Assembly: GCA_903813345.2 (NCBI GenBank)
Contig: CAIIXF020000002.1
Span: 3,136,001 to 3,200,000 of the forward strand
Length of the DNA stretch: 64,000 bases
Source: Owenia fusiformis
Lineage: Eukaryota; Annelida; Polychaeta; Sabellida; Oweniidae
Direction: 5' to 3'
Part shown: positions 1 through 58,785 of the stretch, piece by piece
Numbering within the stretch: the first letter of the stretch is position 1
Layout of the letters: each line of letters begins with the position of its first letter
Made by a program: the position numbers and the translations under genes
The notes under the pieces: generated by a model
The model's database searches: none
What the model saw: only the letters and a program-made list of their open reading frames with translations
What the model was told of the DNA's origin: nothing

Positions 1-1069
1 GGTAAGATTATTTCATACACTTATACATTTCTTGTGAATGTCATGGTGTGTATCCTAGTCAACCCCTCAATCATACGCTTCACATGCCTCTCTGTATCAA
101 GAGTGGAATGCATTTTAAGGTAAGATTATTTCATGCGCTTATACATTTCCTGTGAATGTCTTGGTGTGTACACGAGTCAACCCCTCAATCATACGCTTCA
201 CATGCATCCCTGTATTAAGAGTAGAATGCATTTTAAGGTAAGATTATTTCATACACTTATACATTTCTTGTGAATGTCATGGTGTGTATCCTAGTCAACC
301 CCTCAATCATACGCTTCACATGCCTCTCTGTATCAAGAGTGGAATGCATTTTAAGGTAAGATTATTTCATACACTTATACATTTCTTGTGAATGTCATGG
401 TGTGTATCCTAGTCAACCCCTCAATCATACACTTCACATGCCTCTCTGTATCAAGAGTGGAATGCATTTTAAGGTAAGATTATATCATACGCTTACACAT
501 TTCCTGTTAATGTCATGTTGTGTTTACGACTCAACCCCTCAATCATACACTTCACATGCCTCCCTGTATCAAGAGTGGAATGCATTTTAAGGCAAGATTA
601 TTTCATTCGCTTATACATTTCCTGTTAATGTCATTATATGTATACGAGTCAACCCCTCAATCATACGCTTCACATGCCTCCCTGTACCAAGAGTGGAATG
701 CATTTTAAGGTAAGATTATTTCATACGCTTATACATTTCTTGCTAATGTCATGGTGTGCATACGAATCAACCCCTCAATCATACACTTCACATGCCTCCT
801 CCCTGTATTAAGAGTAGAATGCATTTTAAGGTAAGATTATTTCGTACACTTATACATTTCTTGTGAATGTCATGGTGTGCATACAAATCAACCCCTCAAT
901 CATACGCTTCACATGCCTCCTCCCTGTATTAAGAGAAGAATGCATTTTAAGGTAAGATTATTTCGTACACTTATACATTTCTTGTGAATGTCATGGTGTG
1001 CATACAAATCAACCCCTCAATCATACGCTTCACATGCCTCCCTGTATCAAGAGTGGAATGCATTTTAAT
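1..1069 (+). repeat. 118-121 bp minisatellite containing a BLTP1 exon 3' end and its splice donor
   Basis: Head-to-tail units with GGTAAGATT junctions at 2, 120, 238, 356, 474, 592 (here GC instead of GT), 710, 831 and 952, then a partial last copy that ends TTTTAATGGAAG and lacks the donor. The period is 118, then 121 after a 3-base TCC insertion. Read in the phase required by the next exon (1258), the 3' part of each unit encodes NPSIIRFTCLSVSRVECIL followed by Arg, which flows into LPSLDMVFST. Each unit is therefore an exon tail plus GTAAG donor. The functional copy is probably the one whose donor is at base 2, at the very edge of the window. Confidence 0.88.
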
Positions 1070-1257
1070 GGAAGTCTTTATAGAAGGACTCGAAGGACTT
1101 CAAATAAAAGTTTAGTTGTCCCACATATGCATTGTTAAGCATAGTTCCTCTGCTTAAGAAGAAATTTTTAGTATGGCCATTTTCCTTTGAATATACATGA
1201 ACATGAAACCAACATTTTAAGATATATTCACATTGAATTCATGTTGCATATTAACAG

Positions 1258-1358
1258 GTTGCCATCCCTTGACATGGTTTTCTCCACAAAGAGGATTGAA
1301 ACAGAGAACCCCCTCGTGACATCCAAAGATGGGGGAACTCCTCCAATGAAATCAAAAT
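1258..1358 (+). CDS. BLTP1: BLTP1 exon (window exon 1)
   Basis: The acceptor is TTAACAG, the donor T|GTAAGT. The first base completes an Arg codon split with the upstream exon. It encodes 33 whole codons including LPSLDMVFSTKRIETENP, a conserved BLTP1 block, and ends in phase 1. Confidence 0.88.
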
Positions 1359-4300
1359 GTAAGTAGGATACAAACATTTCAGATGAAGATTCTGCTAATT
1401 TGATGAAATCTTAGCCAAGAGGCCTGTCACAAATTAGTTTTCAACATTTAGAGTAAAGGGAAAAAATATCTCAATTATTTTTTGACCTTGAATAAAACAT
1501 TTTTTAAAACAGGTGAGAAGCAATTACCCAAATATTATAAGTTATGTGTCGATATTTTCCATCCGAGCCTGTTTGTTAAATCGCAGGCAATGTTGGGTCA
1601 GATATTTGTTTTCTATTCTAAATTGTCAAGTCTGAGTATATATTAATGTCATCCCAATAATTGTGAAATACTCCTAATTGATATGACCCCAAATAATGTT
1701 TTGATATGATCTATTAAAAAATTGTATTTTTGAGATTACTGAATAGGATCTGAAACTGTGAATGAGCAAGTTTTTATATTGCAGTAAACCGCGAAAGGTC
1801 TGCGAGTGGAAATCAAGGTCAAGGTCGTAATCTCAACTCTGGTTCCGTAGAGAATCTTCTCCCAGGGGGTGGTCTACAAGTGACAGCGTGTCTCAGTGAC
1901 TTCTCCCTCTTTATCTTCCATCCCTATGGGGGTCAGAACAAGAAAAGTGGCGAAAGCCTGCTTGGGGGACCTGTCATGACTCCCCCCTCTTTGGGTAAAT
2001 AAAAAATATTATTACATTTTTTTAATTTTAATTTTGATTCTAAAATGTTTTTAACTTTATTATGTACAGTCGTAAAATATATATTAGAATGTATTACATA
2101 CCTAGCGAAGCATTTGTATGGAAGTCAATGGAGCTGAAGGACGGCTATATATTCCTGTATAGCCGCCAAACTTTTTACCATGACAATCGTATGACGTCAC
2201 GTTTCATTTCTTACATGTTCACTTTGCACACAGATGTGTGACGTCATTGATATAACATGAAAACAAAGCATTTTTGTCTTTTCACGCATTTCTGCATATT
2301 ATATTCATGAAATGTAATGTAAAATGTACTTTAGGTATGTAATACAACAATTATGTCAGTATCATTGAATATATGCCTTCGGTCTGTCGTAAATATAACC
2401 CTCGCAAGCTCGGGCTATATTATTCACATAGTGCTGTTAGACTTAGTATGCCAATTTGTGGAAACAATCAAAGGGGTCCAGGGGCACACTCTCATCTGAA
2501 AATATTTTGATTTTGATGTTTTTTTATATAATATTTATTTCAATCTAGTGGGAAAGTATTTTCAAATTATTTAGATTTATTTTAGCTATATGCATTAGCA
2601 TACGTCGTACTTAAATGAGCGTAACAGGGTTTACATGAAAACGTCCAACAACATACTCTTAATTTGATTTCACTGAATATTTCAGAATGATATATTTCAC
2701 TGATATAAGTGTAATTGACATTCATGCTGTATTTATTTATCACATTAAAGGGTCTATGACAGATGGCGCTGCGTCACCTCTCTCTGCGGCAACAGGACGT
2801 AAAGATTCACTCAGCCTCAATGTGGAGTTTGTCAAAGTAAACATATCCAGGAGCAGGAAGGGAATCATTCAAGCCTCAGACACACACATTAGTCCAAATC
2901 AATTGAAGGCCGGAGGAAAGAAACCTAGTGGAGGTGCATCAAATATTATAAGATTTTCAAGTAAGTTAATTAAATATCATTAAATCTTACAAGTATCAAA
3001 TATTATAAGGTTTTCAAGTAAGTTAATTAAATATCATTAAATCTTACAAGTATCAAATATTATAAGGTTTTCAAGTAAGTTAATTAAATATCATTAAATC
3101 TTACAAGTATCAAATATTATAAGGTTTTCAAGTAAGTTAATTAAATATCATTAAATCGTACAAGTATCAAATATTATAAGGTTTTCAAGTAAGTTAATTA
3201 AATATCATTAAATCTTACAAGTATCAAATATTATAAGGTTTTCAAGTAAGTTAATTAAATATCATTAAATCTTACAAGTATCAAATATTATAAGGTTTTC
3301 AAGTAAGTTAATTAAATATCATTAAATGTTATAAGTATGGCATCTTAAGATTATAATATTAAATATCATCAGATTATCAAATGTAATCTGATCTCAAGTT
3401 CGCTATTACCTGGCCCAAGCTATTTCAAGTGCTCTACAACTCTGTGAAAATAATGTATTTCTTTCTTTATGAGTGTGTCAGAATCTTAAAGAATTTAAAA
3501 GAATTGAGCAAGTCCAAGTTTGCTTAATGTCTCTGAATATTTCATTACTTTATTATTCTTTCAGCCATATGTGATATTGGATCTGCCTCATTTAAATATA
3601 ACATGAGAAGATTGTCTGAAATCCTAGCTCTGCCCAAAGCATGGTATAGAAAGACCCAATTATTAAGTCTTTTTATTTGACCATATTATTTTCCAGCAAT
3701 ATGTGACATTGGATCTGCCTCATTTAAGTATGACATGAGAAGGTTATCTGAAATCCTTGCTCTGCCCAAAGCATGGTATAGAAAGGGACTCGCTAGAAGA
3801 CTCTTCCTGGGAGATGAAAGTGCACACAATATCGAGGAGTCGGGTAGGTGAAATAAAAAGCCACATATGATGTAATTTGTAATTATTTGCTGTTACATTG
3901 AGATTGACAGACATGCTTTGTTATCCCAACGAATGAAGTTCAGTAGGGATAAAGTGAAGCAAACTAAGTGTTAAAGTTAAGTGTTAAATGGGATCCTTTT
4001 AATGATAAACTTTCGATGATTGATTTTCCTTGATAATTTAAGCATTATTGACTATACAATATTGTATGCATCGACATATTTCAATATCTTTGATTCTGTA
4101 AAAATATATACAAATATGTAGCTGTTCTTGACTAAAATAAATATATATTAAAAAAATATATAAAAAAATAAAAGAAAGCGAAGCCCTCTGTCTGTCAGTC
4201 GGTCCGTCCTTCTGTCTATCCACAAGATAACTCTAATACCAGTCAACAGATTTTCTTCATATGTGGTGGAAATAACCAACCTCTGCAACCATATGAAATC

Positions 4301-7300
4301 AAATTGTATTATACGAGGGTTGTCCCAGAAGTAATGCACTATATGCTTTAACTTTATCAATAATTGATATTTTTCCATGAAATTTTCAGTAAATGTTCCT
4401 TAGAGACATTTTTATTATTCTACAAATTTTCATGTTGACTGATAAAACTTTATTGATGTTATAATAAAATCAAGTTGGTGAGTTTGGGTAGGGCGGGGCA
4501 GGTTACACAGTCACGTCAAATGGAACAAAAAATTGAAAATATGAAATAATTAATCAACAAATACCATTTTGTGTAGCTATAAGAAGTATGGTCAAAAATA
4601 CATTTTAAGATACTAAATTACTATGACCACATCCTAGATTTAATGGATGTATATTGCACAGTGTCCCATCTCACATTTTCTCAAAATATTGCCCTTTGCA
4701 TGTTATGTACTTTTGATGCCTGACAGGTCAAACACTCTTGGTAATTTCTTCCACTGTGACTTGTTGAGTTTTTGCCTCCCATGTTTGGAGTTGTCATCCA
4801 GGGTCAAATCATCTGTTTTAAATATCTTCTGATACCTCATAATTGTAGTTCTATCTGGTATATACTCCTTATATACTTTCTTCATGGTAGCATAAGTTTT
4901 TTGTGGCTGTGAGTCCAAGTGAAGTATGAAATTAGGCCATCAAACTCAAGGTCCTCTGTTATCAGGTGAGAATTGCAGCCATTTTTGTAATTTCTTGACT
5001 GTGACTGTATTTGAATTCGTGACTATTGAAATGTGGTATTATGACATCACAGTGCTAAATGTCATTATTTGTACTTGGTTAACATCATGCTGAATAATTT
5101 AACAATTTCCCAAACATTTTGATCATTAAAAGGAAAGAAATATTAATAAAATAACACTTTACATCTTTTCAAAATTAGAAAAATTGGTACCTGCCTCGCC
5201 CACCCCTACCCCCATGTTGTTATAGCAACCGTATTACGACTTAATATTATTGTTTGATGCTGAAACTTCAGAATATAATAGATAAAACTTCAATTGTTAT
5301 ATACACAAAATTTCAGCTGAATTGAAGAATATTAGAGAAAGTTAGAGCATATAGTGCATTACTTCTGGGACAACCCTCGTACATGTATTCTATTGTATTG
5401 TATTGTACTTATTGCACTGAATGATGCATCATTTGTTGTTCTCAATGAAGATGAAGAAGACGAAGATACAAAATCAAGTGCCACACCCCCCACACCTGAG
5501 ACTCCCCTTCCCTACAACTTCCCCCGAGAGGACACATCACCCTCAAGAAGTGAGAGCCCCGAGGATGGTTCAACCAATCAGAATATAGCTGGGCCTGAGG
5601 AACGTAGAAGCAAAGATTTATGGAGTAAAGAGTTGCCAAATAAACCAGAAAAGCTCTTAATAGGTAAGAGGTGATTCAAATAAGTCATCTATCACCTTAG
5701 ATCATAAAGTACTTTGAAAAATGGCATACAATGTATTTCTATTTAGCATATTAATAAGGTGATTTACTTATTGTATTTTTATACAGTTGTTGTTCTGTTA
5801 ATATTAAGGTTCCATAAAACAAAAACTCAATAAAAGAACACTATAAATAGATCCTTACTGAAATTGGTGTTATCTCCAAAAACGTGATGCTTAACCATTT
5901 GTAATGATAAGGATCGGTTTTTGATTGATGATTTCATTTAGGACAGTCGCAACCATGTTGAATTAAATACTGGTACTATTTATCAGGTGGCACACCACTA
6001 TCGCCAACAAGCAGTAACAAGGCAAAGCTCCTACCTCCATTACTAAAATCACCAGTCCACCATGCACCTTTGATTCCCCAGAGTTACGACACTGTGGACC
6101 ATTTCCGCAAACTTCCCATATTGGCTAGTGTCTCGTCGAATGACAGCACCAGTAGCCAATCAAAATCGTTGAATAGTTGGGAAACGTTGGTGATGTTTGC
6201 ATTGAATCTGTCTCAATTAGATGTCCACGTCAATATGGGGAATGTCATGGGACTCACAACGTAAGTACATATGAAATGTTAGTAAATTATATAGGCAAAG
6301 TTATGTACTCCAGGTATTTTTTGTCTGCAATTTACTTTCGCGCTTTTTGTGATTGTAGTGAAATCGCGAAAAAACTAATCTTAGCAAAATTGGCAATTAA
6401 ATTTGTGAAACTTTTTATTTTTTAATTGTCGCAAAAATCTGACTGTCTCAACATGCCTTGGTGGTTCAACCTTTGATGATTGATAGAAATAGAAAGTTAT
6501 TCTATATTTACTTTAAATAAATCTTTACTTTTGAATAGATGGTTCACAAAAGATCTAAAGTCTCAGGGAAGATTTGCTATCGACAGTAATTGTCGCAAAA
6601 ATCTGACTGTCACAACATGCCTTGGTGGTTCAACCTTAGATGCCAAGGGAGGAATTGTTGGTGGTGCCATAGAAATACAAGATATTACAACTACAAGTAT
6701 GTTTTTTGTGTTGAAAATATAGATTAAAATGAATTTCAAGTAAATCAATTTTACTTTGTAGTAATTAGATTCCTTCAAGAATAATATATATTTTTGAATG
6801 TTTCTTTCATTTGTCACATTTATGTTTTATTTCTAAATTGTGTAACAGTATAATATTTCTTCATGTCTTTTCATTTCTCATATATATTTTCTCATGTGTC
6901 TTTTGACTTCATTCTTAAACTTCTGTAGCTTTCTCAGTTTAATTTGAATTCTTTTATTTAATTTAACTTCTTCTTTTAACTTCTTTTATTTAATTTAACT
7001 TCTTAATTTATTTTAAACCTCAATTAGTGATCTCTTTCCTAAAAGCTTCCTGTATTTTTCTCATTTACATTTTTCCAGTTAAGAATATTTCCATAATACC
7101 ACTTTCTTGAGTTATACTTAAATTTTGTTCTTTGGTTTTCTTCAGTTAAAGTGAAGGAAGACCCTGGATTGGACCCAGATCACAAATGTGGAATTGTTCT
7201 TTCTGCCATTGAAGCAAGACTTGATTACATGGGATCTAGTGTCCTAATGGGACGTACTAGTCAACTTGAGGTAGGAAATTGTCACCCCTGCCCACTCAAT

Positions 7301-10300
7301 TGTCTCTGCTATAGTATGCTACATTAGGGAGCATTTCAAAAGATTGATATCGGAAAATTAACTGTATTTGCACAGTTAGGGAGGGAGGGGGTCATTGGAC
7401 TTAACAGTAAGTGTTCCAACATCATTCCTGGGAATTTTTGGTGATTGCTCTTTTTGTCAAGTGCATTTTCGGTACGAAAAATAAAAAAAAACATGTACAC
7501 AACAAAAATAAAATTATACAAAAATGAGTTGCTCCCATAAAAATAAAACATTGGCTACTGCCTTTGAGATTTAACTATCTTCTTTCTGCATGATCTGAAA
7601 TGGCCACTCCCTTTTGATATTACATAATAATATGTTATGGTCACCATTTTATGGATGGTGTTTAGCGGTTAGTGTTAAGAATTTGTTGTTCAGTTGTCAG
7701 CGTCTGTAACAAATGGCAGGTGGTGACATTTTGTCGTGTTAATGCCTTCTTCATTTTTGTTCAGGTTAGTTTGGCAGATGAGTGGAGAGTGGGAGATATG
7801 GGAAGTGATGATGAACTATTAGCAACCAAGAGGTAGGAATCTAAGTCTCAAAATCCAACTTTCAAAATCTCATTATTAGATTATAAGATTTATTTTACAT
7901 CTCTTTTATTCTTTATTTGACTTTATGTAAAAATTTAAACAATTCCATGTTTTTTTAGCTCACATGGTGAGCTATTGCAATCACTCACTTGTCCATCTGT
8001 CTGTCCCTCTGTCAACAATTGGCCAGTGTTAAAACCTCTGACAATAGGATTCCCTGTTTAAGTTATGTTTGTTCAACATCAATATAAAAAACCCCCCTAT
8101 GATTCCTGGTTCAAAAGCTTGCCTATTTTCAAAATGGCCACCATTTTTGCCTCGGGAAATTCACTTTTGTTATTATTTTGTTTTGTTTTATTTAATTAAT
8201 GATTTTGTGGAAATTACATTTGTAGACCCGCATTGATATTTGTCCATGGTGAGCTACAATGGGATAAATTCCATTTGATGATTTCAAAGTCAACGACCCC
8301 TGATCTTATCAAGATGGTATCCAAAGTGGAGGAATTCTTCATACAACAATTACATAGCAGTAAACGTGTATTTTCTAATTTTGGAACACTTGCGGCAATT
8401 TCTAAACCCAAGAAGAGAATTATCTCTCTAGATGAAGGTAATGTGTATGTTCATTTTTATCAGATATTAAAAGCTGAAAAAAAAGTAATAAATACATATG
8501 GTTTATCATAGATTCTTATCAGGAAATAGTCTCAGAGTAACATCTGGTAAAAGGATACATCAGCAATTTCAGCTTTGGCATTTGCATGACTTGTTTTCCA
8601 ATGGTATACTTTTGCAGTAAACCACATTTTGTCAATATGTACAATAATGTTAAACATTTATTTGTTGTGTTAATAAGACAGGCGTAAAGCGTGAGAAATG
8701 TGTGATAACTGATGTACATTCATTTCACTTAAAACTACAATCATATATTTTACAGAAAAAATATCTGAAGCAAAGCATCATCGCCATTGGCAGAAAGTCC
8801 TGGAGCACATAGCTGGTTGTACGTTCAAGATGCTCAAACTTCAACTTCCAAATAAGGGCACAATTGTTGGCGGAACTATGTACCTACAGGGAGACAATCT
8901 CTCATTAGCTTGTTTCCATGGTATCAACTTTCGGTCAAAATCGTGGGCATTGTTTACGATGAACGAACCAAACATTTCATTTGCAACTGAATCACAGCAG
9001 ATTACAACTGAAGGTAGATGATCACTGCATATTTGAATCAACATTTAGTAATTTATATATTTTTGAATAGATGTCACTGCATGGACCTTGAAAAAGTATT
9101 TCATAAAAAATTGTTACAGAATGCAGCAAAGTTATTATGTCACCACCAAAAGTGGTGACATATTGTTATGGTCTCCGTTTTTTTATGTCACCACCAAAAG
9201 TGGTGACATATTGTTATGGTCACCGTTTTTTTGCGACGGCGGTTGGCGTCCGGCGGTTGGTGGTTGGCGTCCGGCGGTTGGCGTCCGGCGGTTGGCGTCC
9301 AGCGTCTGTAACAATTTCTTACAACTTCCTATAACTTAACAAATACTGTTTAGACTGACTTCAATTTTTTTCTAAATCATCTACATGTTCTCAGAAGTTC
9401 AAATCTGACTTTAGATTTGACATTTGACCTTCAATGACCTTCTCAAGGTCAAAAAGGTCTTTTTTCAACTTGCTTCACATTGACTAAATTTTTTTTCAAA
9501 ATCATCTACATGTTCTCAGAAATTCAAATCTGACTTTAGATTTGACATTTGACCTTCAATGACCTTCTCAAGGTCAAAAAGGTCTTTTTTCAACTTGCTT
9601 CACATTGACTAAATTTTTTTTCAAAATCATCTACATGTTCTCAGAAATTCAAATCTGACTTTAGATTTGACATTTGACCTTCAAATCTGACTTTAGATTT
9701 GACATTTGACCTTCAATGAGCTTCTCAAGGTCAAAAAAAGGTCAAAAAGGTCTGTTTTCAACTTGCTTCAAATTGACTAAATTTTTTTTTCAAAATCATC
9801 TACGTGTTCTCAGAAATTCAAATCTGACTTAAGATTTGAATTAAGATTTGACATTTGACCTTCAATGACCTTCTCAAGGTCAAAAAAGGTCAAAAAGGTA
9901 TGTTTTCAACTTGCTTCAAATTGATTAAAAAAAATTTTCAAAATCATCTACGTGTTCTCAGAAATTCAAATCTGACTTTAGATTTGACTTAAGATTTGAC
10001 ATTTGACCTTCAATTACCTTCTCAAAGTCAAAAAAGGTCAAAAAGGTCTTTTTTCAACTTGCTTCAAATTGACTAAATTTTTTTTTCAAAATCATCTACA
10101 TGTTCTCAGAAATTCAAATCTGACTTTAGATTTGACATTTGACCTTCAATGACCTTCTCAAGGTCAAAAAAGGTCAAAAAGGTCTGTTTTCAACTTGCTT
10201 CAAATTGACTAAATTTCTTTTTCAAAATCATCTACGTGTTCTCAGAAATTCAAATCTGACTTAAGATTTTACATTTGACCTTCAATGACCTTCTCAAGGT

Positions 10301-13300
10301 CAAAAAAGGTCAAAAAGGTCTGTTTTCAACTTGCTTCAAATTGACTAAAAAAAATTTTCAAAATCATCTACGTGTCCTCAGAAATTCAAATCTGACTTTA
10401 GATTTGACTTAAGATTTGACATTTGACCTTCAATGACCTTCTCAAGGTCAAAAAAGGTCAAAAAGGTCTGTTTTCAACTTGCTTCAAATTGACTAAATTT
10501 TTTTTCAAAATCATCTACATGTTCTCAGAAATTCAAATCTGACTTTAGATTTGACTGAAGATTTGACATTTGACCTTCAATGACCTTCTCAAAGTCAAAA
10601 AAGGTCAAAAAGGTCTTTTTTCAACTTGCTTCAAATTGACTAAATTTTTTTTTCAAAATCATCTACATGCTCTCAGAAATTCAAATCTGACTTTAGATTT
10701 GACATTTGACCTTCAATGACCTTCTCAATGTCAAAAAAGGTCAAAAAGGTATATTTTCATCTTGCTTCAAATTGACTAAATTTTTTTTCAAAATCATCTA
10801 CATGTTCTCAGAAATTCAAATATGACTTTAGATTTGACATTTGACCTTCAATGACCTTCTCAAGGTCAAAAAAGGTCAAAAATGTCTTTTTTCAACTTGC
10901 TTCAAATTGACTAATTTTTTTTTTCAAAATCATCTACATGTTCTTAGAAATTCAAATCTGACTTAAGATTTGACATTTGACCTTTAATGACCTTCTCAAG
11001 GTCAAAAAAGGTCAAAAAGGTCTGTTTTCAACTTGCTTCAAATTGACCAAATTTTTTTTTCAAAATCATCTACATCTTTTCAGAAGTTCAAATTTGACTT
11101 TACAAGTTCTCAGAAATTCAAATCTGACTTAAGTTTGAACTCATAATATTGTGAGCAACTAGGTGGTGACATTTTGTCATGTTAATGCCTTGTCAAAATT
11201 TATATCAGTAGCAATTTTTACAGTAGCAAAGCAATAATAGTTCCCACAAATTCAATGGGTTTTGCAGTTGCACTCTAAACCATAAGGTTCCCACTAATTC
11301 AATGTGTTTTACTGTAGCAGAAACCATATGTTTTCACATACCTAGACGACCAAATAAAATTATTTATTAGCAAAGCCTAATAGCAAGCATATATTGAAAT
11401 GTTGACTTGAGGTCAACTCCCATATGTTAAAATAATATCTTTGGTTTTACACCAAGTTAATCCCCCTATTTACAGACTCAGCAGACACTCACATAGTCCA
11501 GAATCTGTCCTTCCAACTGGGTCACAACATTACTGAACTGTCCAATAAGAAACAAGAGATGGCTGTTATATGCAAGCTGTCTCGTGGTCACTATATGCCT
11601 CCACCTTTCACCAGTGTACAGGAATGGTTCCATTATGCATTTGCATCAACCAACTTCAAAAGTAAGAGATCAATTATTCTTTGTTCACTACATTACAATA
11701 AACACACTATATATTTCTTCAATATGATTGAAGTTTCACATTGTGGTATAGATAGGAAATTTCCATAAGATTTAGAATTGACATTCCATAGGAAGGGAGG
11801 ATAGGGGGGAAATTTCCACAGTGATAATCAATATATATGAGAATGGTTCACATTTATCTAAAATATTGAGCTTACAAGTTGTAAAGCCGTAAGGAAAACT
11901 GAGAAGAGAATTCCAGAAAAAAGGAAACGTTGGATTCATAATTAAATTGATCGTTTTTCAGATTTAGATAGCTTCCCAACAATGAAGCGACAGCCTTGTG
12001 ACAGTCCTAGTCCCACTGAGAGACGATCATCATCGAGAAAGTCGCAAGATTACAGCCATGACACTGAAGTGATATTCTCCCTCCCTGCTCTACAACTTCA
12101 TTTAAAGACAGAGCATCTACAAGCCTCTATTGAACCTCTGTGTACAGGTACATGTTTATATTCTCTCTCCCTGCTCTACAACTTCATTTAAAGACAGAGC
12201 ATCTGCAAGCCTCCATTGAACCTCTGTGTACAGGTACATGATTGTATTCTCCCTCCCTGATCTACAGCTTCATTTAAAGACAGAGCATCTGCAAGCCTCC
12301 ATTGAACCTCTGTGTACAGGTACATGTTTGTATTCTCCCTCCCTGATCTACAGCTTCATTTAAAGACAGAGCATCTACAAGCCTCTATTGAACCTCTGTG
12401 TACAGGTACATGTTTATATTCTCTCTCCCTGCTCTACAACTTCATTTAAAGACAGAGCATCTGCAAGCCTCCATTGAACCTCTCTGTACAGGTACATGTT
12501 TATATTCTCTCTCCCTGCTCTACAACTTCATTTAAAGACAGAGCATCTGCAAGCCTCCATTGAACCTCTCTGTACAGGTACATGTTTGTATTCTCCCTCC
12601 CTGCTCTACAGCCTCATTTAAAGACAGAGCATCTACAAGCCTCCATTGAACCACTTTGTACAGGTACATGTTTATATTCTCCCTCCCTGCTCTACAACTT
12701 CATTTAAAGACAGAGCATCTGCAAGCCTCTATTGAACCTCTTTGTACAGGTACATGTTTATATTCTCCCTCCCTGCTCTACAACTTCATTTAAAGACAGA
12801 GCATCTGCAAGCCTCTATTGAACCTCTCTGTACAGGTACATGTTTATATTCTCCCTCCCTGCTCTACAACTTCATTTAAAGACAGAGCATCTGCAAGCCT
12901 CTATTGAACCTCTTTGTACAGGTACATGTTTATATTCTCCCTCCCTGCTCTACAACTTCATTTAAAGACAGAGCATCTGCAAGCCTCCATTGAACCTCTC
13001 TGTACAGGTACATGTTTGTATTCTCCCTCCCTGCTCTACAACTTCATTTAAAGACAGAGCATCTGCAAGCCTCTATTGAACCTCTTTGTACAGGTACATG
13101 TTTATATTCTCCCTCCCTGCTCTACAACTTCATTTAAAGACAGAGCATCTACAAGCCTCCATTGAACCTCTGTGTACAGGTACATGTTTATATTCTCTCT
13201 CCCTGCTCTACAACTTCATTTAAAGACAGAGCATCTGCAAGCCTCCATTGAACCTCTGTGTACAGGTACATGTTTATATTCTCCCTCCCTGCTCTACAAC

Positions 13301-16300
13301 TTCATTTAAAGACAGAGCATCTGCAAGCCTCCATTGAACCTCTTTGTACAGGTACATGTTTATATTCTCCCTCCCTGCTCTACAACTTCATTTAAAGACA
13401 GAGCATCTGCAAGCCTCCATTGAACCTCTGTGTACAGGTACATGTTTATATTCTCCCTCCCTGCTCTACAACTTCATTTAAAGACAGAGCATCTGCAAGC
13501 CTCCATTGAACCTCTGTGTACAGGTACATGTTTATATTCTCCCTCCCTGCTCTACAACTTCATTTAAAGACAGAGCATCTGCAAGCCTCCATTGAACCTC
13601 TGTGTACAGGTACATGTTTATATTCTCCCTCCCTGCTCTACAACTTCATTTAAAGACAGAGCATCTGCAAGCCTCTATTGAACCTCTTTGTACAGGTACA
13701 TGTTTATATTCTCCCTCCCTGCTCTACAACTTCATTTAAAGACAGAGCATCTGCAAGCCTCTATTGAACCTCTTTGTACAGGTACATGTTTATATTCTCC
13801 CTCCCTGCTCTACAACTTCATTTAAAGACAGAGCATCTGCAAGCCTCCATTGAACCTCTTTGTACAGGTACATGTTTATATTCTCCCTCCCTGCTCTACA
13901 ACTTCATTTAAAGACAGAGCATCTGCAAGCCTCCATTGAACCTCTGTGTACAGGTACATGTTTATATTCTCCCTCCCTGCTCTACAGCCTCATTTAAAGA
14001 CAGAGCATCTGCAAGCCTCCATTGAACCTCTTTGTACAGGTACATGTTGTAACAACCTAGTTTAAGGTACATGTTGTAACAACCTAGTTTAAGGTACATG
14101 TTGTAACAACCTAGTTTAAGGTACATGTTGTAACAACCTAGTTTAAGGTACATGTTGTAACAACCTAGTTTAAGGTACATGTTGTAACAACCTAGTTTAA
14201 GGTACATGTTGTAACAACCTAGTTTAAGGTACATGTTGTGACAACCTAGTTTAAGGTACATTTTGTAACAACCTTGTTACAGGTAGATGTCAAACAACCT
14301 GCTTATAGTGCACCCTTTTCAAACTGCATGCAAGAAATGTTGATTTCAATGCAGATGTCATGCACACATGATGTGTCACAATCTACATGGGATGCAATGT
14401 TGTAAGTTTGAAGGGGTGACATCTGACCCCCCTGCCCATCTGTGCTATGAATAACATGTACAAATAAAGTTAGAAAATATTCACTCAACCCACAGTCCCT
14501 CTGTTATATTTTCCTTTCATGTGTTTCAGAGCCTCGGCCAATTGTGGAGTGCAGCTTTGTGACAGAGTTTGAGGATCATATATTCGTTGCCATGGATGCA
14601 GAAGCTGTCCTCTTTTTACATGATCTTGTTAACTCTTATATCAAGGAAAAGGACAAAGGTAGGTCTGACAAAGGTTAACCCTAGAATTCCTCTGAAACAT
14701 TTTCAATTGGTCTTCTCATTCTACTTTATTTAGTTTGGTTCTTTTGATCAGGTATTCATGTCCAGATTTAAAAGACCTTTTCAATAAACCCTTCCACCTT
14801 TTAGTCCATCAAAGAAGACTATGATATACTGTGACAAAAGATCAGGTGTTATATCGATGAATAAACACCGCAGCGCTAGGCACAAACGTTTCCTGTACCC
14901 TGAATGACCAAAGGGAGTGATTTATTCGAAAGCTTTTGTGCCTAGCCATAAGGGGTTTATTTGTCAATGTAACACCTGATCAGAGGTCTATGTTATGATT
15001 CCAACATGAAAACTCCCAAAAATGATATTTCAGATATTCATTATGGTCCGCCATTACTACAGCCACACGTTATGACGTCACACATTACTCGTATTACCCT
15101 GGAGAATTATTGACTTTGTTCACAGTTTATATAGAAGGCATGAATACAGTCATGTTTGAATTGCAATCATATGTATTTAATGCAGTAGGCCTAAGTTTAT
15201 TCTATTTTTGATTCCTTTTTTATTTTAGTTCCCATCCTGGAATTTTCCCCTCTATATTTTCAATCATGATGGAAATTTCCCCTCTATATTCCTCCAATTT
15301 GATATTTTTCAGCTCTAATGGGACGACCAGGATCATACAGTGCCTACAGAGACAGAGACAAAGAGGCTGATAAAAAATCCGAGACTGACACATCCCTCTA
15401 CGAAGACTTTAGGGAATACCAGTGTAAAACATGGCACTTGGAACCCACTGTCAGGTAACGTAGGGAATTAGTTTTATGCAAGCTGTGTGTTTGTAATTTG
15501 TTAATATATCGATTCAAACCTGATAGTTCTGGCACATATACGAGGGTGATCATAAAGTTCTCATAATATCTCTCTAATTTCTTTACTTTTCAATATTTTC
15601 CTATGAAATTTTCACAGAATGTACAGCATGAAATGTTTTATTAATCCAGGAAAGAATATTTAGGATAACAGAAACATTAAATAAGAAATGGTCTCAGACT
15701 CTGGTATCACATCTAATGAAGCTTGAAAGCATCCCCTATGACACTACACAATCCACATGATCAATTTTTTCAATAGTAAAAGCACTTAACAACATATTCA
15801 AGTTAACATCTTAACGTGTTTGGTAATTTATGAGAGTTTATTATGTGTGTTAAAATGGTTAATTAGAGCCATACTCTCAATTACTTTTATTTACCCCGGG
15901 TGCCTTGATTTCCCGTTACTATGGCAACCATTTCTTATTTAATATTTCTGTTAAACTAAATATTTTTAGCTGATTTAATAAGACATTCTATGCTGCACAT
16001 TCTGTGAAAATTTCATTAGAATATAATAAAAAATATAGAAATTAGAGGGATATTATGAGAACTTTATGATCAACCCTCGTATGTACTGTATATTGTATAA
16101 TTTCATTCACTATTATATTCTAGTTGATACTTAATTATTATGTCACTGCCATATTATTATGTCATCGCCATATTATTATGTCATCGCCATATTCTCTTTT
16201 TTGTGGATGGTGTGTGATGGTTGGCATCTGTAATAAATGGTGGTGTGACATTTTGCATATTGGTGCCTTGTTTATAACATTATATGTCACTATCAGATTG

Positions 16301-16549
16301 TGGAATTTTTCTAAATATTATTTTCTATTCTATATTAGGTTGTTATATTGGGCTGGGAAGAAGATAGATCCAGTAGGTGTGGACTATGTTCTTCAGAAGT
16401 TAGGCTTCCAACATGCGAGACTCACCATTCCAAAATGGATGCAGCGTGGATTTATGGACCCTCTTGACAAAATATTAGCTGTGCTTGTTGATCGTCTTGT
16501 TTTAGTACTTCGAAAAACACCAAAGACTCAAGAAGAGCAAAATAAGTAA
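1258..16549 (+). CDS. BLTP1: Bridge-like lipid transfer protein 1 (KIAA1109/tweek), C-terminal ~942 residues; 5' part lies before the window
   Basis: Sixteen exons: 1258-1358, 1785-1994, 2751-2960, 3697-3843, 5451-5663, 5987-6260, 6539-6696, 7146-7270, 7765-7832, 8226-8437, 8756-9013, 11476-11661, 11962-12147, 14530-14658, 15313-15454, 16339-16549. Every junction is AG/GT and every codon phase matches; the sum gives 942 residues and a TAA stop. Segments I recognise from the family are SLDMVFST, RKDSLSLNVEFVKV, DIGSASFKYDMRRLSEIL, LGGSTLDAKGG, VECSFVTEFEDHIFVAMDAE and the terminal WHLEPTVRLLYWAGKKIDP block of the FSA C-terminal domain. The family's proteins are ~5000 residues, membrane-anchored, rod-shaped lipid conduits at ER contact sites, so about the last fifth is here. 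Known of the family: bulk phospholipid transfer, and endocytosis/synaptic roles for fly tweek. Inferred: orthology, from the block order. The exact starts of exons 3 and 5 are the least certain junctions. Confidence 0.93.
1785..1994 (+). CDS. BLTP1: BLTP1 exon (window exon 2)
   Basis: The acceptor is TATTGCAG, the donor G|GTAAAT. It encodes a polar Ser/Asn/Gly-rich linker followed by LQVTACLSDFSLFIFHPYGG, a strand-forming block typical of the lipid-groove repeats. It ends with one base of a Gly codon that exon 2751 completes. Confidence 0.87.
2091..2345. mobile_element. Short inverted-repeat element (MITE-like) in a BLTP1 intron
   Basis: GTATTACATACCT at 2091 is the exact reverse complement of AGGTATGTAATAC ending at 2345, and inside it ATGACGTCAC near 2192 faces TGTGACGTCAT near 2238. 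The palindromic layout suggests a small non-autonomous DNA transposon. No clear target duplication was identified. Confidence 0.42.
2751..2960 (+). CDS. BLTP1: BLTP1 exon (window exon 3)
   Basis: The acceptor is ATTAAAG, the donor TTTTCAA|GTAAGT. It encodes GRKDSLSLNVEFVKVNISRS, a recognisable family block, then a basic, Lys-rich stretch ending SNIIRFS. The donor end of this exon has seeded the 57 bp tandem array that follows it. Confidence 0.86.
2941..3331 (+). repeat. 57 bp minisatellite copying the end of BLTP1 exon 3 and its donor
   Basis: GTAAGT donors recur exactly every 57 bases at 2961 (the real one), 3018, 3075, 3132, 3189, 3246 and 3303. Each copy carries the exon tail ATCAAATATTATAAGGTTTTC before the donor, then TTAATTAAATATCATTAAAT of the intron. 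Copies are nearly identical. Reading past the first donor in frame meets TAA within about 30 bases, so only the first donor keeps the protein open. Confidence 0.93.
3565..3653 (+). pseudogene. Truncated duplicate of the next BLTP1 exon
   Basis: After a proper TTCTTTCAG acceptor this copy encodes ICDIGSASFKYNMRRLSEIL and then KAWYRK, matching the start of the exon at 3697 with about 7 differences in ~88 bases (Asp to Asn is one). Similarity stops after AGAAAG and is followed by unrelated sequence with an early stop and no donor. It is a partial tandem exon duplication about 130 bases upstream of the intact exon; it may still compete for splicing because its acceptor is intact. Confidence 0.83.
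3697..3843 (+). CDS. BLTP1: BLTP1 exon (window exon 4)
   Basis: The acceptor is TTTTCCAG, the donor CGG|GTAGGT. It encodes DIGSASFKYDMRRLSEIL and ARRLFLGDE, one of the best-conserved stretches in this part of the family, ending in phase 1. Confidence 0.9.
3926..4290 (+). repeat. Dispersed repeat with GTCCGTCC-type head, interrupted by an insertion
   Basis: TATCCCAACGAATGAAGTTC at ~3924 and the block GAAGCCCTCTGTCTGTCAGTC at ~4177 to GTGGTGGAA are contiguous in the better copy at 62630-62745, but here are separated by ~215 unrelated AT-rich bases bounded by GAAGC on both sides. That is the pattern of a later insertion with a 5-base duplication. A mariner element then lands in the same unit at 4312. 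Confidence 0.6.
4312..5381 (-). mobile_element. mariner-like element remnant in a BLTP1 intron
   Basis: A 1070-base unit including TA on both sides. The left end is CGAGGGTTGTCCCAGAAGTA; the right end is its reverse complement and the terminal repeat reaches ~35 bases. On the minus strand 4918-4703 reads like the helix-turn-helix part of a mariner transposase (VYKEYIPDRTTIMRYQKIF, then LTLDDNSKHGRQ). The remaining transposase cannot be read through, so it is dead or non-autonomous. Confidence 0.8.
5451..5663 (+). CDS. BLTP1: BLTP1 exon (window exon 5)
   Basis: The donor is ATAG|GTAAGA. The start is chosen at CTCAATGAAG because two bases (AT) complete the Gly/Asp codon left by exon 4; another AG six bases downstream would also keep frame. 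It encodes an acidic, Pro/Thr/Ser-rich linker (DEEDEDTKSSATPPTPETP), probably disordered. Confidence 0.75.
5987..6260 (+). CDS. BLTP1: BLTP1 exon (window exon 6)
   Basis: The acceptor is TTTATCAG, the donor ACAAC|GTAAGT. The first half is a Ser/Pro/Leu-rich linker, the second encodes SWETLVMFALNLSQLDVHVN then MGNVMGLTT, a family strand-turn-strand block. It ends in phase 2. Confidence 0.9.
6426..6479 (+). pseudogene. Internal fragment of the next BLTP1 exon, duplicated in the intron
   Basis: About 53 bases from TTGTCGCAAAAATCTGACTG to TTCAACC match 6587-6641 inside exon 7 with only about two changes. There is no acceptor or donor, so it cannot be an exon by itself. It is recent, given the near identity. 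Confidence 0.85.
6539..6696 (+). CDS. BLTP1: BLTP1 exon (window exon 7)
   Basis: The acceptor is TTTGAATAG, the donor ACAA|GTATGT. It encodes WFTKDLKSQGRFAIDS and TCLGGSTLDAKGGIVGGAIE, a signature of the BLTP1 C-terminal region. Confidence 0.92.
7146..7270 (+). CDS. BLTP1: BLTP1 exon (window exon 8)
   Basis: The acceptor is TTTTCTTCAG, the donor GAG|GTAGGA. It encodes CGIVLSAIEARLDYMGSSVL followed by MGRTSQLE, and ends in phase 0. Confidence 0.91.
7629..7755. mobile_element. Short copy of the GTCACCACC/GGTGGTGAC element family
   Basis: It starts TATGTTATGGTCACC and ends GGTGGTGACATTTTGTCGTG, with GTCTGTAACAAATGGC between. The ends match those of the large copy at 9134-11197 and the short ones at 16137 and 17271. 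It lies just upstream of the acceptor of the 7765 exon. Confidence 0.6.
7765..7832 (+). CDS. BLTP1: BLTP1 exon (window exon 9)
   Basis: The acceptor is TTGTTCAG, the donor AAGAG|GTAGGA. At 68 bases it is the shortest exon; it encodes VSLADEWRVGDMGSDDELL, starts in phase 0 and ends in phase 2. Confidence 0.87.
7955..8190. repeat. Dispersed repeat fragment (AGCTCACATGGTGAGCTA type)
   Basis: AGCTCACATGGTGAGCTA opens a segment with TGTCCATCTGTCTGTCCCTC and AAATGGCCACCATTTTTGCC. This layout resembles dispersed repeats common in lophotrochozoan genomes and the Gene-2 intron repeat at 27830-29047. No ends were defined. Confidence 0.4.
8226..8437 (+). CDS. BLTP1: BLTP1 exon (window exon 10)
   Basis: The acceptor is ACATTTGTAG, the donor GAAG|GTAATG. 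It encodes ALIFVHGELQWDKFHLMISK and KMVSKVEEFFIQQLHSSKRV, matching the family in order and spacing. Confidence 0.91.
8756..9013 (+). CDS. BLTP1: BLTP1 exon (window exon 11)
   Basis: The acceptor is ATTTTACAG, the donor GAAG|GTAGAT. It encodes HRHWQKVLEHIAG, LPNKGTIVGGTMYLQGDNLS and FRSKSWALFTMNEPNISFAT, strongly family-like. Confidence 0.92.
9134..11197. mobile_element. ~2 kb element with inverted GTCACCACC ends and a tandem AGGTCA-rich core
   Basis: The left end ATGTCACCACC (twice, in a 51-base tandem) is the reverse complement of GGTGGTGACAT near 11161. The left end folds as a perfect palindrome, TATGTCACCACC-AAAA-GTGGTGACATA. A GC-rich GGTTGGCGTCC repeat follows, then about thirteen units of 120-170 bases between ~9370 and ~11130, each with TCATCTAC, TTCTCAGAAATTCAAATCTG and AAGGTCAAAAAAGGTC. 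A tandem core between conserved arms resembles bivalve 'pearl'/Helentron-associated elements; that assignment is an inference. Confidence 0.72.
11476..11661 (+). CDS. BLTP1: BLTP1 exon (window exon 12)
   Basis: The acceptor is TATTTACAG, the donor AAAA|GTAAGA. It encodes VQNLSFQLGHNITELSNKKQ and FTSVQEWFHYAFASTNFK. Its acceptor lies ~280 bases after the end of the AGGTCA-rich element. Confidence 0.92.
11962..12147 (+). CDS. BLTP1: BLTP1 exon (window exon 13), source of the 86 bp array
   Basis: The acceptor is GTTTTTCAG, the donor TGTACAG|GTACAT. It encodes a Ser/Arg-rich linker, then EVIFSLPALQLHLKTEHLQA and SIEPLCT. The last ~86 bases and the donor are repeated 22 more times downstream; only the first donor gives an open frame into the 14530 exon. 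Confidence 0.9.
12062..14040 (+). repeat. 86 bp minisatellite: 23 donors from BLTP1 exon 13 tail
   Basis: TACAG|GTACATG occurs at 12148 and then every 86 bases to 14040 with no indels at the positions checked, i.e. 22 periods. Each unit repeats ATTCTCCCTCCCTGCTCTAC, AAAGACAGAGCATCTGCAAG and the donor. Variation is limited to a few positions (CTACAA/CTGCAA, CTCT/CTCC, GTG/TTG). 86 is not a multiple of three, and each unit has an in-frame TAA if read through from the exon. Confidence 0.96.
14040..14290 (+). repeat. 27 bp minisatellite growing out of the last 86 bp unit
   Basis: GGTACATGTTGTAACAACCT followed by AGTTTAA recurs every 27 bases: junctions at 14040, 14067, 14094, 14121, 14148, 14175, 14202, 14229 and 14256, plus a decayed one at 14283 (AGGTAGATG). 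The unit starts with the same GGTACATG splice-donor sequence as the 86 bp array. There are no unique spacers, so it is not CRISPR-like. Confidence 0.95.
14530..14658 (+). CDS. BLTP1: BLTP1 exon (window exon 14)
   Basis: The acceptor is GTGTTTCAG, the donor AAAG|GTAGGT. It encodes PRPIVECSFVTEFEDHIFVA followed by MDAEAVLFLHDLVNSY, the start of the conserved FSA C-terminal block. Confidence 0.94.
14840..14981. mobile_element. Hairpin element (MITE-like) in a BLTP1 intron
   Basis: GATCAGGTGTTA at 14840 pairs with TAACACCTGATC ending at 14981, and GGCACAAACG with the facing CTTTTGTGCC, giving ~49-base imperfect arms around a ~45-base loop. Confidence 0.6.
15313..15454 (+). CDS. BLTP1: BLTP1 exon (window exon 15)
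   Basis: The acceptor is ATTTTTCAG, the donor TCAG|GTAACG. It encodes ALMGRPGSYSAYRDRDKEAD and YEDFREYQCKTWHLEPTV, leading into the last exon. Confidence 0.94.
15541..16079. mobile_element. 539 bp TA-flanked MITE (CGAGGGTGATCATAAAGTTC ends)
   Basis: TA flanks both sides (15539-15540, 16080-16081). The left end CGAGGGTGATCATAAAGTTC and the right end are inverted copies, extending over TCTCATAATATCTC. There is no coding potential. A 105-base internally deleted relative lies at 36090-36194. Confidence 0.85.
16137..16274. mobile_element. Short GTCACTGCC/GGTGTGACATTTTG element copy
   Basis: Three tandem TTATTATGTCATCGCCATA units start it and GGTGGTGTGACATTTTGCAT ends it, like the family at 9134, 7629 and 17271. 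It lies ~65 bases before the acceptor of the terminal exon. Confidence 0.6.
16339..16549 (+). CDS. BLTP1: BLTP1 terminal coding exon with TAA stop
   Basis: The acceptor is CTATATTAG. It encodes LLYWAGKKIDPVGVDYVLQK, IPKWMQRGFMDPLDKILAVL and a basic/polar end TPKTQEEQNK, then TAA at 16547-16549. This is the end of the FSA C-terminal domain; family members end in similar short charged tails. Confidence 0.95.
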
Positions 16550-44863: not shown

Positions 44864-46317
44864 AACAGGATCTTAAGAGGTTCTGGACAAATCATTTGAT
44901 TCTGGACTTGACATATTTTTTTTCCAACGAAATCACATCCAAGGGTTGAATTTTTATTGGATATTTAGAGAGCGAGTCCTGTATTGATTTCAATAAAAAG
45001 GTTAAAATAGAACGCTATTTGAGAGTTAATCTTATACTTTCATTACATTGATAAATTAAGGCAAATTCTGAAAAATTTTAAAGTGCATTTTTTATGAAAT
45101 ATTATCCAAGTATTTAGATGAAACGGTCTTATTTAAATACAAATCATAACATGATGATATTTTTTCATAAAATATTTCTTCAAGAAATTCAATTGAAGGC
45201 TCAAGATAAAACGAGCTAATTTAGGTGAAAACCCTTACATGATGATGTGTTTTCATGACTTCTTTCATAAAATTCCATCAAGGGGTGAAAATAAAATGAT
45301 CGAATTTAAGTGATTTAAGGATCACGAGGATAGGTTTTCTTGGATATTTTCTATGAAATCCCATCCAGTGGTCAAGGTAAAATTTTTATTTGGTATATTT
45401 GGTCACGTGTTCGAACCCATAGAACCATATAGGAACGTCATTTTGAATGTTACGTGATAAATCCATATAAGGCTTTTAGAACAATGTGGGGAAAGATGAG
45501 GGGAAACCCCTGACACCTGTTCACGATTTTATCCGAACGTTCATCGGATCATTTCGGTTTTTATGCACTTCATTATTTTACCGAAGTTTGCCGATTCGAT
45601 TCGTCGTATTTCGGAATATTGGGGACAATTTTATACTCCATTGGGAGTATTTTTAATCTACTTCTTATTACGAAGATTCCCGAACCTTGTTCGGATTAAT
45701 CCGGATTTTCTGACCTACTTCATCTACCGAGATTTAACGAGTTTACATTCGGCTCATTTCGGAATCCTGGTGACAATTTTATACTCCATTGGAGTATTTT
45801 TGATCTACTTCTCTGGATTTTTGATCTACTTCTTATGACGAAGATTCCCGAATCAGTTCGGATTAATCCGGATTTTCTGACCTACTTTATCTACCGAGAT
45901 TTAACGAGTTAACATTCGTCTCATTTCGGAATCCTGGTGACAATTTTATACTCCATTGGAGTATTTTTGATCTACTTTTTCTGGATTTTGCCCTACTTAT
46001 TATAAGTTGACAGCAAGCAAATCAAAAAGTTCGCCATGAACGGGTTTCGATCGACTAACCTAGAGAGTGGAAGCTAAACACGCTAGCCATGAGGCTAACG
46101 TTTACCTGTGTGAGATGATAAAAGTACCATATATTTATACCGAGCGTCAATTTAGAATGATCTTCGCTTTTGACTCCACTTAAATACAACTCGTCAGTTG
46201 TATCCAGAATAGGTGAACGCCTATGGTGTTAGTGAATAACCAAATCCCAGGCGAGTGGTTCGTATCCCACCGTGATATGTTATTTTTGCTTTATTAATAC
46301 GACAGAAAGGAGCAAGG
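44864..46317 (+). repeat. Left arm of the large inverted repeat
   Basis: Contains two to three ~180-base internal units (GATTTAACGAGTT, TTTCGGAATCCTGGTGACAA, CTCCATTGGAGTATTTTT) and near 46230 AGTGGTTCGTATCCC, a B-box-like sequence. It has two more short tracts of the internal unit than the right arm. Confidence 0.93.
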
Positions 46318-57350: not shown

Positions 57351-58785
57351 CCTTGCTCCTTTCTGTCGTATTAAAAAAGCAAAAATAACATATCACGGTG
57401 GGGTGCGAACCACTCGCCTGGGACTTGGTTATTCACTAGTACCATAGGCGTTCATCTATTCTGGATACAACTGACGAGTTGTATTTACGTGCAGTCAAAA
57501 GTGAAGATCATTTTGAATTGACGCTCGGTATAAATATATATTACTTTTATCCTTTCGTATCGGTTGCACGTTAGCCTCATGGCTAACGTGCCTAGCTTCC
57601 TTGCTCTAGGTTAGTCGATCGAGACCCGTTCATGGCGAATTTTTTGATTTGCTTGTTGTAAAGATATAATAAGTAGGGCAAAATCCAGAAAAAGTAGATC
57701 AAAAATACTCCAATGGAGTATAAAATTGTCACCAGGATTCCGAAATGAGACGAATGTAAACTCGTTAAATCTCGGTAGATGAAGTAGGTCAGAAAATCCG
57801 GATTAATCCGAACAAGGTTCGGAAATCTTCGTCATAAGAAGTAGATCAAAAATACTCCAATGGAGTATAAAATTGTCACCAGGATTCCGAAATGAGCCGA
57901 ATGTAAACTCGTTAAATCTCGGTAGATGAAGTAGGTCAGAAAATCCGGATTAATCCGAACAAGGTTCGGGAATCTTCGTAATAAGAAGTAGATTAAAAAT
58001 ACTCCCAATGGAGTATAAAATTGTCCCCAATATTCCGAAATACGACGAATCGAATCGGCAAACTTCGGTAAAATAATGAAGTGCATAAAAACCGAAATGA
58101 TCCGATGAACGTTCGGATAAAATCGTGAACAGGTGTCAGGGGTTTCCCCTCATCTTTCCCCACATTGTTCTAAAAGCCTTATATGGATTTATCACGTAAC
58201 ATTCAAAATGACGTTCCTATATGGTTCTATGGGTTCGAACACGTGACCAAATATACCAAATAAAAATTTTACCTTGACCACTGGATGGGATTTCATAGAA
58301 AATATCCAAGAAAACCTATCCTCGTGATCCTTAAATCACTTAAATTCGATCATTTTATTTTCACCCCTTGATGGAATTTTATGAAAGAAGTCATGAAAAC
58401 ACATCATCATGTAAGGGTTTTCACCTAAATTAGCTCGTTTTATCTTGAGCCTTCAATTGAATTTCTTGAAGAAATATTTTATGAAAAAATATCATCATGT
58501 TATGATTTGTATTTAAATAAGACCGTTTCATCTAAATACTTGGATAATATTTCATAAAAAATGCACTTTAAAATTTTTCAGAATTTGCCTTAATTTATCA
58601 ATGTAATGAAAGTATAAGATTAACTCTCAAATAGCGTTCTATTTTAACCTTTTTATTGAAATCAATACAGGACTCGCTCTCTAAATATCCAATAAAAATT
58701 CAACCCTTGGATGTGATTTCGTTGGAAAAAAAATATGTCAAGTCCAGAATCAAATGATTTGTCCAGAACCTCTTAAGATCCTGTT
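57351..58785 (-). repeat. Right arm of the large inverted repeat
   Basis: Reverse complement of 44864-46317. Ends at GATCCTGTT, then AGAC. Near identity over long stretches (e.g. GATTTGTCCAGAACCTCTTA); tRNA-like GCCTCATGGCTAACGTG near 57570 also occurs in the left arm. Confidence 0.93.

Follow-up and report, generated by a model that had tools for sequence, protein, structure and literature searches.

The term mirage was coined for minisatellites of amphioxus Adh3, and the accessible text of two papers extends it to troponin C, to the globins and, imperfectly, to PGBD5 (PMC3087553, PMC3902484). As described there, the globin mirages lie in BflGb6 and BflGb9 and affect both boundaries (PMC3087553, PMC3902484), haplotypes of 6 and 3 units are recorded (PMC3087553, PMC3902484), and splicing was apparently regular by RT-PCR (PMC3087553). 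PMC2572611 has among its references a paper on a human interferon-induced transcript in which a minisatellite multiplies the splice donor. For the annelids, the available text on intron minisatellites of earthworm metallothionein does not mention overlap with exon edges (PMC12783039), and our search of the open-access literature found no report of such arrays in the phylum.

The window analyzed here is a 64,000-nucleotide stretch of Owenia fusiformis DNA, and the 3′ end of BLTP1 occupies the first 16.5 kb of it. Seventeen exons, taken with their first donors and canonical sites, join into a single frame of 998 amino acids whose stop ends at 16549. A Pfam search with the product gives BLTP1_C (E = 1.1e-245), and the product also matches the structure of a BLTP1-family protein (PDB 9cap, E = 4.5e-44). 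Detection with TRF recovered all four arrays that the initial annotation had reported in this part of the gene. The features discussed below are the following.

-750 to -582, just outside the window, plus strand: BLTP1 exon 1, in the 17-exon open frame
1 to 1068 in the window, starting at position 9312 of locus L001, plus strand: 118-bp minisatellite of the exon 1 tail and AAG/GTAAGAT donor, the slash marking the exon end (TRF)
1258 to 1358, plus strand: BLTP1 exon 2, in the 17-exon open frame
2751 to 2960, plus strand: BLTP1 exon 4, its final 23 bp being part of the first 57-bp unit
2938 to 3338, plus strand: 57-bp minisatellite of the exon 4 tail and CAA/GTAAGTT donor, 7 copies (TRF)
3551 to 3653, plus strand: single partial copy, upstream of the original at 3684-3785, of the exon 5 acceptor and exon start (91% identity)
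3697 to 3843, plus strand: BLTP1 exon 5, in the 17-exon open frame
6423 to 6478, plus strand: partial copy of the exon 8 interior (original 6587-6642), in the intron before it (96% identity)
11962 to 12147, plus strand: BLTP1 exon 14, its final 76 bp being part of the first 86-bp unit
12072 to 14048, plus strand: 86-bp minisatellite of the exon 14 tail and ACAG/GTACATG donor, 23 copies (TRF)
14038 to 14290, plus strand: 27-bp minisatellite, 9.4 copies, opening with the final 86-bp unit's donor (TRF)
14530 to 14658, plus strand: BLTP1 exon 15, in the 17-exon open frame

The three arrays of exon tail plus donor are thereby confirmed by TRF and by the 998-aa frame, as is the fourth array, of 27 bp, which begins at the donor of the final 86-bp unit and contains 8 exact AGGTACATG copies. 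The 118-bp array continues upstream of the window to L001 9312 and has 14.9 copies in all. The exonic part amounts to 107, 23 and 76 bp in the 118-, 57- and 86-bp arrays, respectively, and each array runs past the donor. Donor copies in the context of the real site number 13 (12 GT and 1 GC), 7 and 23, in agreement with the 7- to 23-fold multiplication claimed at the outset. With simple matrices whose consensus frequencies come from general knowledge, the first donor scores 6.4 in the 118-bp, 5.1 in the 57-bp and 2.5 in the 86-bp array, and the other copies score equally with few exceptions (in the 118-bp array one GC site, one copy at 4.4 and one at 6.3). Every later donor tested in the three arrays leads to a stop 1, 7 or 14 amino acids beyond the exon end. 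The early stops of the initial annotation thus stand, and its explanation that only the first donor keeps the frame does not: a period of 57 bp is divisible by 3, and in the other two arrays, too, some of the later donors are in phase, so failure is by stop and not by loss of frame.

Several other features lie in the window or near it. The intronic copy of the exon 5 acceptor at 3551-3653 outscores its original (5.7 versus 3.6). Between 9135 and 11102 of the window, away from exon edges, an intronic repeat opens with an inverted motif (TTATGTCACCACC...GGTGACATA) and has units of 125-136 bp in tandem within it. Tandem repeats at 45649-46003 (167 bp) and 57692-58050 (147 bp) have consensus units that, judged by eye, apparently form one family in opposite orientation. 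A gene on the opposite strand with eight SRCR domain matches (L001 4500-8141, minus) apparently lies inside a BLTP1 intron; the BLTP1 exon before it was not located.

We compared the BLTP1 tail with exons elsewhere in the genome. The sample comprises exons of dynein heavy chains (PF08393), myosin heads (PF00063) and upstream BLTP1 (PF25040) with 181 kb around them, and a second set from PF12774 and PF25039 (77 kb). It holds 253 profile-matched exons, from family searches that score the best candidates only. For PF08393, 79 of 80 hits fall inside the sampled stretches; for PF00063, 92 hits are listed and 79 were entered, 73 of which fall inside. The entries exclude a run of 12 tandem copies of an exon (C9:37986009-37994334) and a single hit at C9:37982984. 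PF25040 gave 24 hits, 15 being the BLTP1 tail and the 9 upstream ones being used, and 92 of 93 hits were used for PF12774 and PF25039. A further 55 exons were mapped by comparison with paralogues, their edges unrefined; simple splice-site scores are the basis on which the edges of the sampled exons were set. An array is a TRF row with a period of at least 25 bp and at least 2.5 copies, overlapping rows being merged, and an edge array includes 3 or more exonic bp; arrays truncated at the end of a fragment were retained. The excluded myosin copies (G000:C9:37986009-37994334, minus) are twelve tandem matches to one stretch of the myosin head (about 18-84 of the profile) beside further myosin exons, and apparently form a large alternative-exon cluster.

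Outside the BLTP1 tail there are 37 arrays, and 10 of them lie across the edge of an exon: acceptors are involved in 6 (L009, L018, L033 and L035, with L040 and L062 in BLTP1) and donors in 4 (L011, L015, L028 and L043). With the tail included the count is 42 arrays, with 7 donor and 6 acceptor edges, so that splice-edge arrays occur on about 4% of the sampled exons (13/325). Dynein, myosin and other genes carry them too. BLTP1 is nevertheless enriched, having edge arrays on 5 of 31 exons versus 8 of 294 (P = 0.004), three at donors and two at acceptors. The enrichment is perhaps due in part to the denser arrays there (13 in 44.6 kb versus 29 in 232.9 kb elsewhere). In the tail itself 3 of 5 arrays lie at exon edges versus 0.82 expected (P = 0.03), for a gene that was picked because of its arrays. 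GC content is 35% over L001-L041, as against about 41% in amphioxus, and the genome has three matches above the cut-off to the erythrocruorin-linker family (Eryth_link_C), an annelid family; an origin from amphioxus, the taxon known for mirages, is therefore not supported. A search for mollusc haemocyanin gave no match, as it did in the control genomes, and a COX1 search for a mitochondrial contig gave none.

A donor-specific process is rejected by these counts, since acceptor arrays are as common outside the tail, and a gene-specific effect is rejected as the sole cause, since other genes have edge arrays, though BLTP1 is over-represented. The initial annotation had emphasized donors and a single gene, and neither emphasis is borne out. 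It had proposed to compare 5′ with 3′ splice sites over all introns; in the sampled exons both edges are hit, and the donor bias falls away. It had included neither the acceptor arrays upstream in BLTP1 (L040 and L062) nor any remark on the partial copies of exons 5 and 8.

We consider the edge arrays, from their sequence, to be probably mirage minisatellites, that is, tolerated tandem duplications spanning a splice site; they occur in many genes, at donors as well as acceptors, and BLTP1 is particularly rich in them. Short stretches of about 30-260 bp would be duplicated in tandem all over genes, and the duplicated units would expand via slippage or unequal exchange. A duplication inside an exon would break the protein and be lost. 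A duplication over one splice site would be tolerated, because one terminal copy would serve as the normal exon edge and the others would fall in the intron, the site being chosen by position: presumably the first donor in donor arrays and the last acceptor in acceptor arrays. We infer this tolerance from the reading frame and from the finding that, at the sampled loci outside the tail, not one array is confined to an exon (0 of 37 versus 4.8 expected if tolerated).

The main alternative, which we regard as improbable, is that duplication is by its nature directed to splice boundaries, for instance by breaks linked to transcription or by splicing complexes that have paused. Under the neutral expectation duplications start anywhere and survive only if they are intronic or span one edge, and the expected number is set by unit length and the exon map. 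Outside the tail the 10 edge arrays among 37 compare with 4.36 expected from the profile exons only (P = 0.007) and with 5.45 when the 55 paralogue-mapped exons are added (P = 0.033), a 1.8-fold excess. Removal of the arrays cut by fragment ends gives 10 of 32 versus 4.53 (P = 0.008), which favors a preference. Against it, the expectation rose with the 55 added exons and may rise further, and the excess weakens without BLTP1 (8 of 29 versus 4.6, P = 0.07) and when the threshold is lowered to 1.9 copies (11 of 50 versus 6.61, P = 0.053). The PF12774 set, a second group of dynein exons sampled later, shows no excess, with 1 of 6 versus 0.87 expected. Tolerance explains most of the edge-array pattern, and a splice-site preference is weak and unproven. 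The earlier proposal of either a process that prefers boundaries or a selection regime that tolerates them is accordingly upheld in its second half, and only weakly in its first.

Word patterns counted over the whole genome also bear on a preference. The donor pattern, three AGGTAAGT words spaced 26-56 bp with the backwards word as control, has 428 matches versus 339, though the backwards word is the commoner one singly (14 versus 26 in the 333 kb sampled). For the acceptor pattern of three TTTTCAGG words there are 260 matches versus 61 backwards, and singly 31 versus 15 in the same 333 kb. Both excesses point toward a preference, but such counts are weak tests of enrichment: overlapping matches in long arrays are counted many times, which gives such arrays the greatest weight, and no list of arrays accompanies the control. 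We read upstream of all 13 arrays among the donor matches listed (part of the 428). In 4 of them, the exon that terminates at the first donor belongs to a recognizable protein (Muted family, 5.9e-15; CTDNEP1, 7.6e-12; UGDH, 2.2e-18; FANCI, 1.2e-15), and 3 further ones have weak matches (tetraspanin, 0.058; Cep192, 0.004; ABCC5, 0.01). Three of the 13 gave no Pfam match; the other unassigned ones are two without a Pfam search and the L070 array, which ran past the sampled stretch. Copies in the acceptor-word arrays at G000:C3:2522786-2523641 and C3:24932651-24932820 read like protein-coding exons, which we take to be the P-loop exon of a septin and an exon of alanyl-tRNA synthetase, respectively.

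If the edge arrays are tolerated duplications, the splicing machinery would have to choose among similar sites. The clear acceptor arrays have 6 (L009), 5 (L033), 4 (L035), 8 (L040) and 5 (L062) copies, and the last copy belongs to the real exon. In 8 of the 11 clear edge arrays (the three of the BLTP1 tail, L015, L009, L033, L035 and L062), only the copy nearest the far end of the exon avoids a stop. The frame is open at all 5 later donors in L043 and at 5 of the 7 earlier acceptors in L040, where the two farthest lead to stops, and the real donor of L028 is ambiguous; position need not decide in these 3 of 11. The weakest edge cases are L011, in which no donor copy is intact, and L018, with 3 exonic bp only. 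Since most copies score about as well as the site used, the choice should depend on position. Lower-scoring copies are one at 0.6 in L043, one at -0.1 in L033 and one without AG in L062, and some copies in L009 score above the used site. The 114-bp acceptor array of L040 (6607-7505; G000:C2:3103607-3104505), in BLTP1, is open over the last 6 of its 8 copies, and may be translated.

The first donor and the last acceptor are both the copy that gives the shortest exon. With exon definition and intron definition understood as in the available text of PMC3488318, this choice would fit recognition across exons, and recognition across introns predicts the opposite copies; the step from mode of recognition to choice of copy is our own. 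A genome with many edge arrays is in this respect a natural experiment on how splicing chooses among similar sites: use of first donors and last acceptors would indicate that exons are recognized as units, and use of the opposite copies that introns are.

A further possibility gives the exon copy the role of master of its array, the intronic units being copied from, or exchanging with, a unit under selection; the exon unit would then be the source that renews the intronic ones. It would account for intronic copies that differ mostly at synonymous positions though translation would be expected for few of them. We hold both the mechanism and this account of the differences to be doubtful. Third codon positions account for 6 of the 9 variable columns of the 86-bp tail array, for 9 of 14 in L040 and for 8 of 12 in L035, and over 20 pooled arrays third-position sites vary at 56 of 302 versus 76 of 600 first and second positions (P = 0.013). 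The excess is carried by those three arrays, which were singled out afterwards; the other 17 give 33 of 220 versus 64 of 432. There is no excess in the nine arrays found by pattern (12 of 117 versus 22 of 223, P = 0.52) or in the 118-bp array, where third positions make up 14 of the 39 variable columns (P = 0.37).

The remaining explanations are far less probable. Functional arrays, whose decoy sites slow or regulate splicing or yield NMD-targeted isoforms, would suit the up to 23 intact donor copies in one intron, but the arrays occur in unrelated genes, at either edge and with differing periods and copy numbers, which makes a function very unlikely. Equally remote is intron gain in progress, in which copies with spare splice sites feed new introns or exons. 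In the accessible parts of the reports, amphioxus globins are suggested as candidates for such gain (PMC3087553) and a potato gene is a described case (PMC4974935), and the 6 in-frame open copies of L040 would be consistent with it; in the BLTP1 tail, however, no new intron is seen and the later copies carry stops. An assembly artefact or chance overlap is hardly credible, given that the arrays, as they stand in the assembly, have units differing in their exonic part in 19 of 20 cases (the exception being L028) and recur on many contigs.

With tolerated duplication as the preferred reading, the Owenia arrays can be set beside the known systems. In the human gene, which we take to be IFI6 (6-16), one minisatellite likewise supplies multiple splice donors; it differs from the present case in being a single human gene with a short unit, of which the inner donors are reportedly used. 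The likeness to the potato gene, as far as the accessible report describes it, is that spare splice sites come from a tandem duplication that crosses the boundary of intron and exon (PMC4974935). The BLTP1 tail differs: its single frame leaves the surplus copies within introns that are already there; no new intron appears in a former exon, and existing introns grow. This suggests how introns can grow out of exon sequence. The amphioxus mirages, in the available descriptions, are closest: in both cases minisatellites copy an exon-intron boundary, many copies keep intact signals, either boundary may be involved and the genes are unrelated. Here too the units span the boundary, many copies carry AG or GT, and both 5′ and 3′ boundaries are found. 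Those descriptions include RT-PCR and haplotype evidence, whereas the present arrays are known from the sequence and frame of one haplotype; they differ further in lying in an annelid genome, in that one gene has five, and in that a base rate over conserved exons has been estimated. In summary, the annelid arrays extend a kind known from amphioxus, with a first base rate, and suggest that mirages are not peculiar to lancelets.
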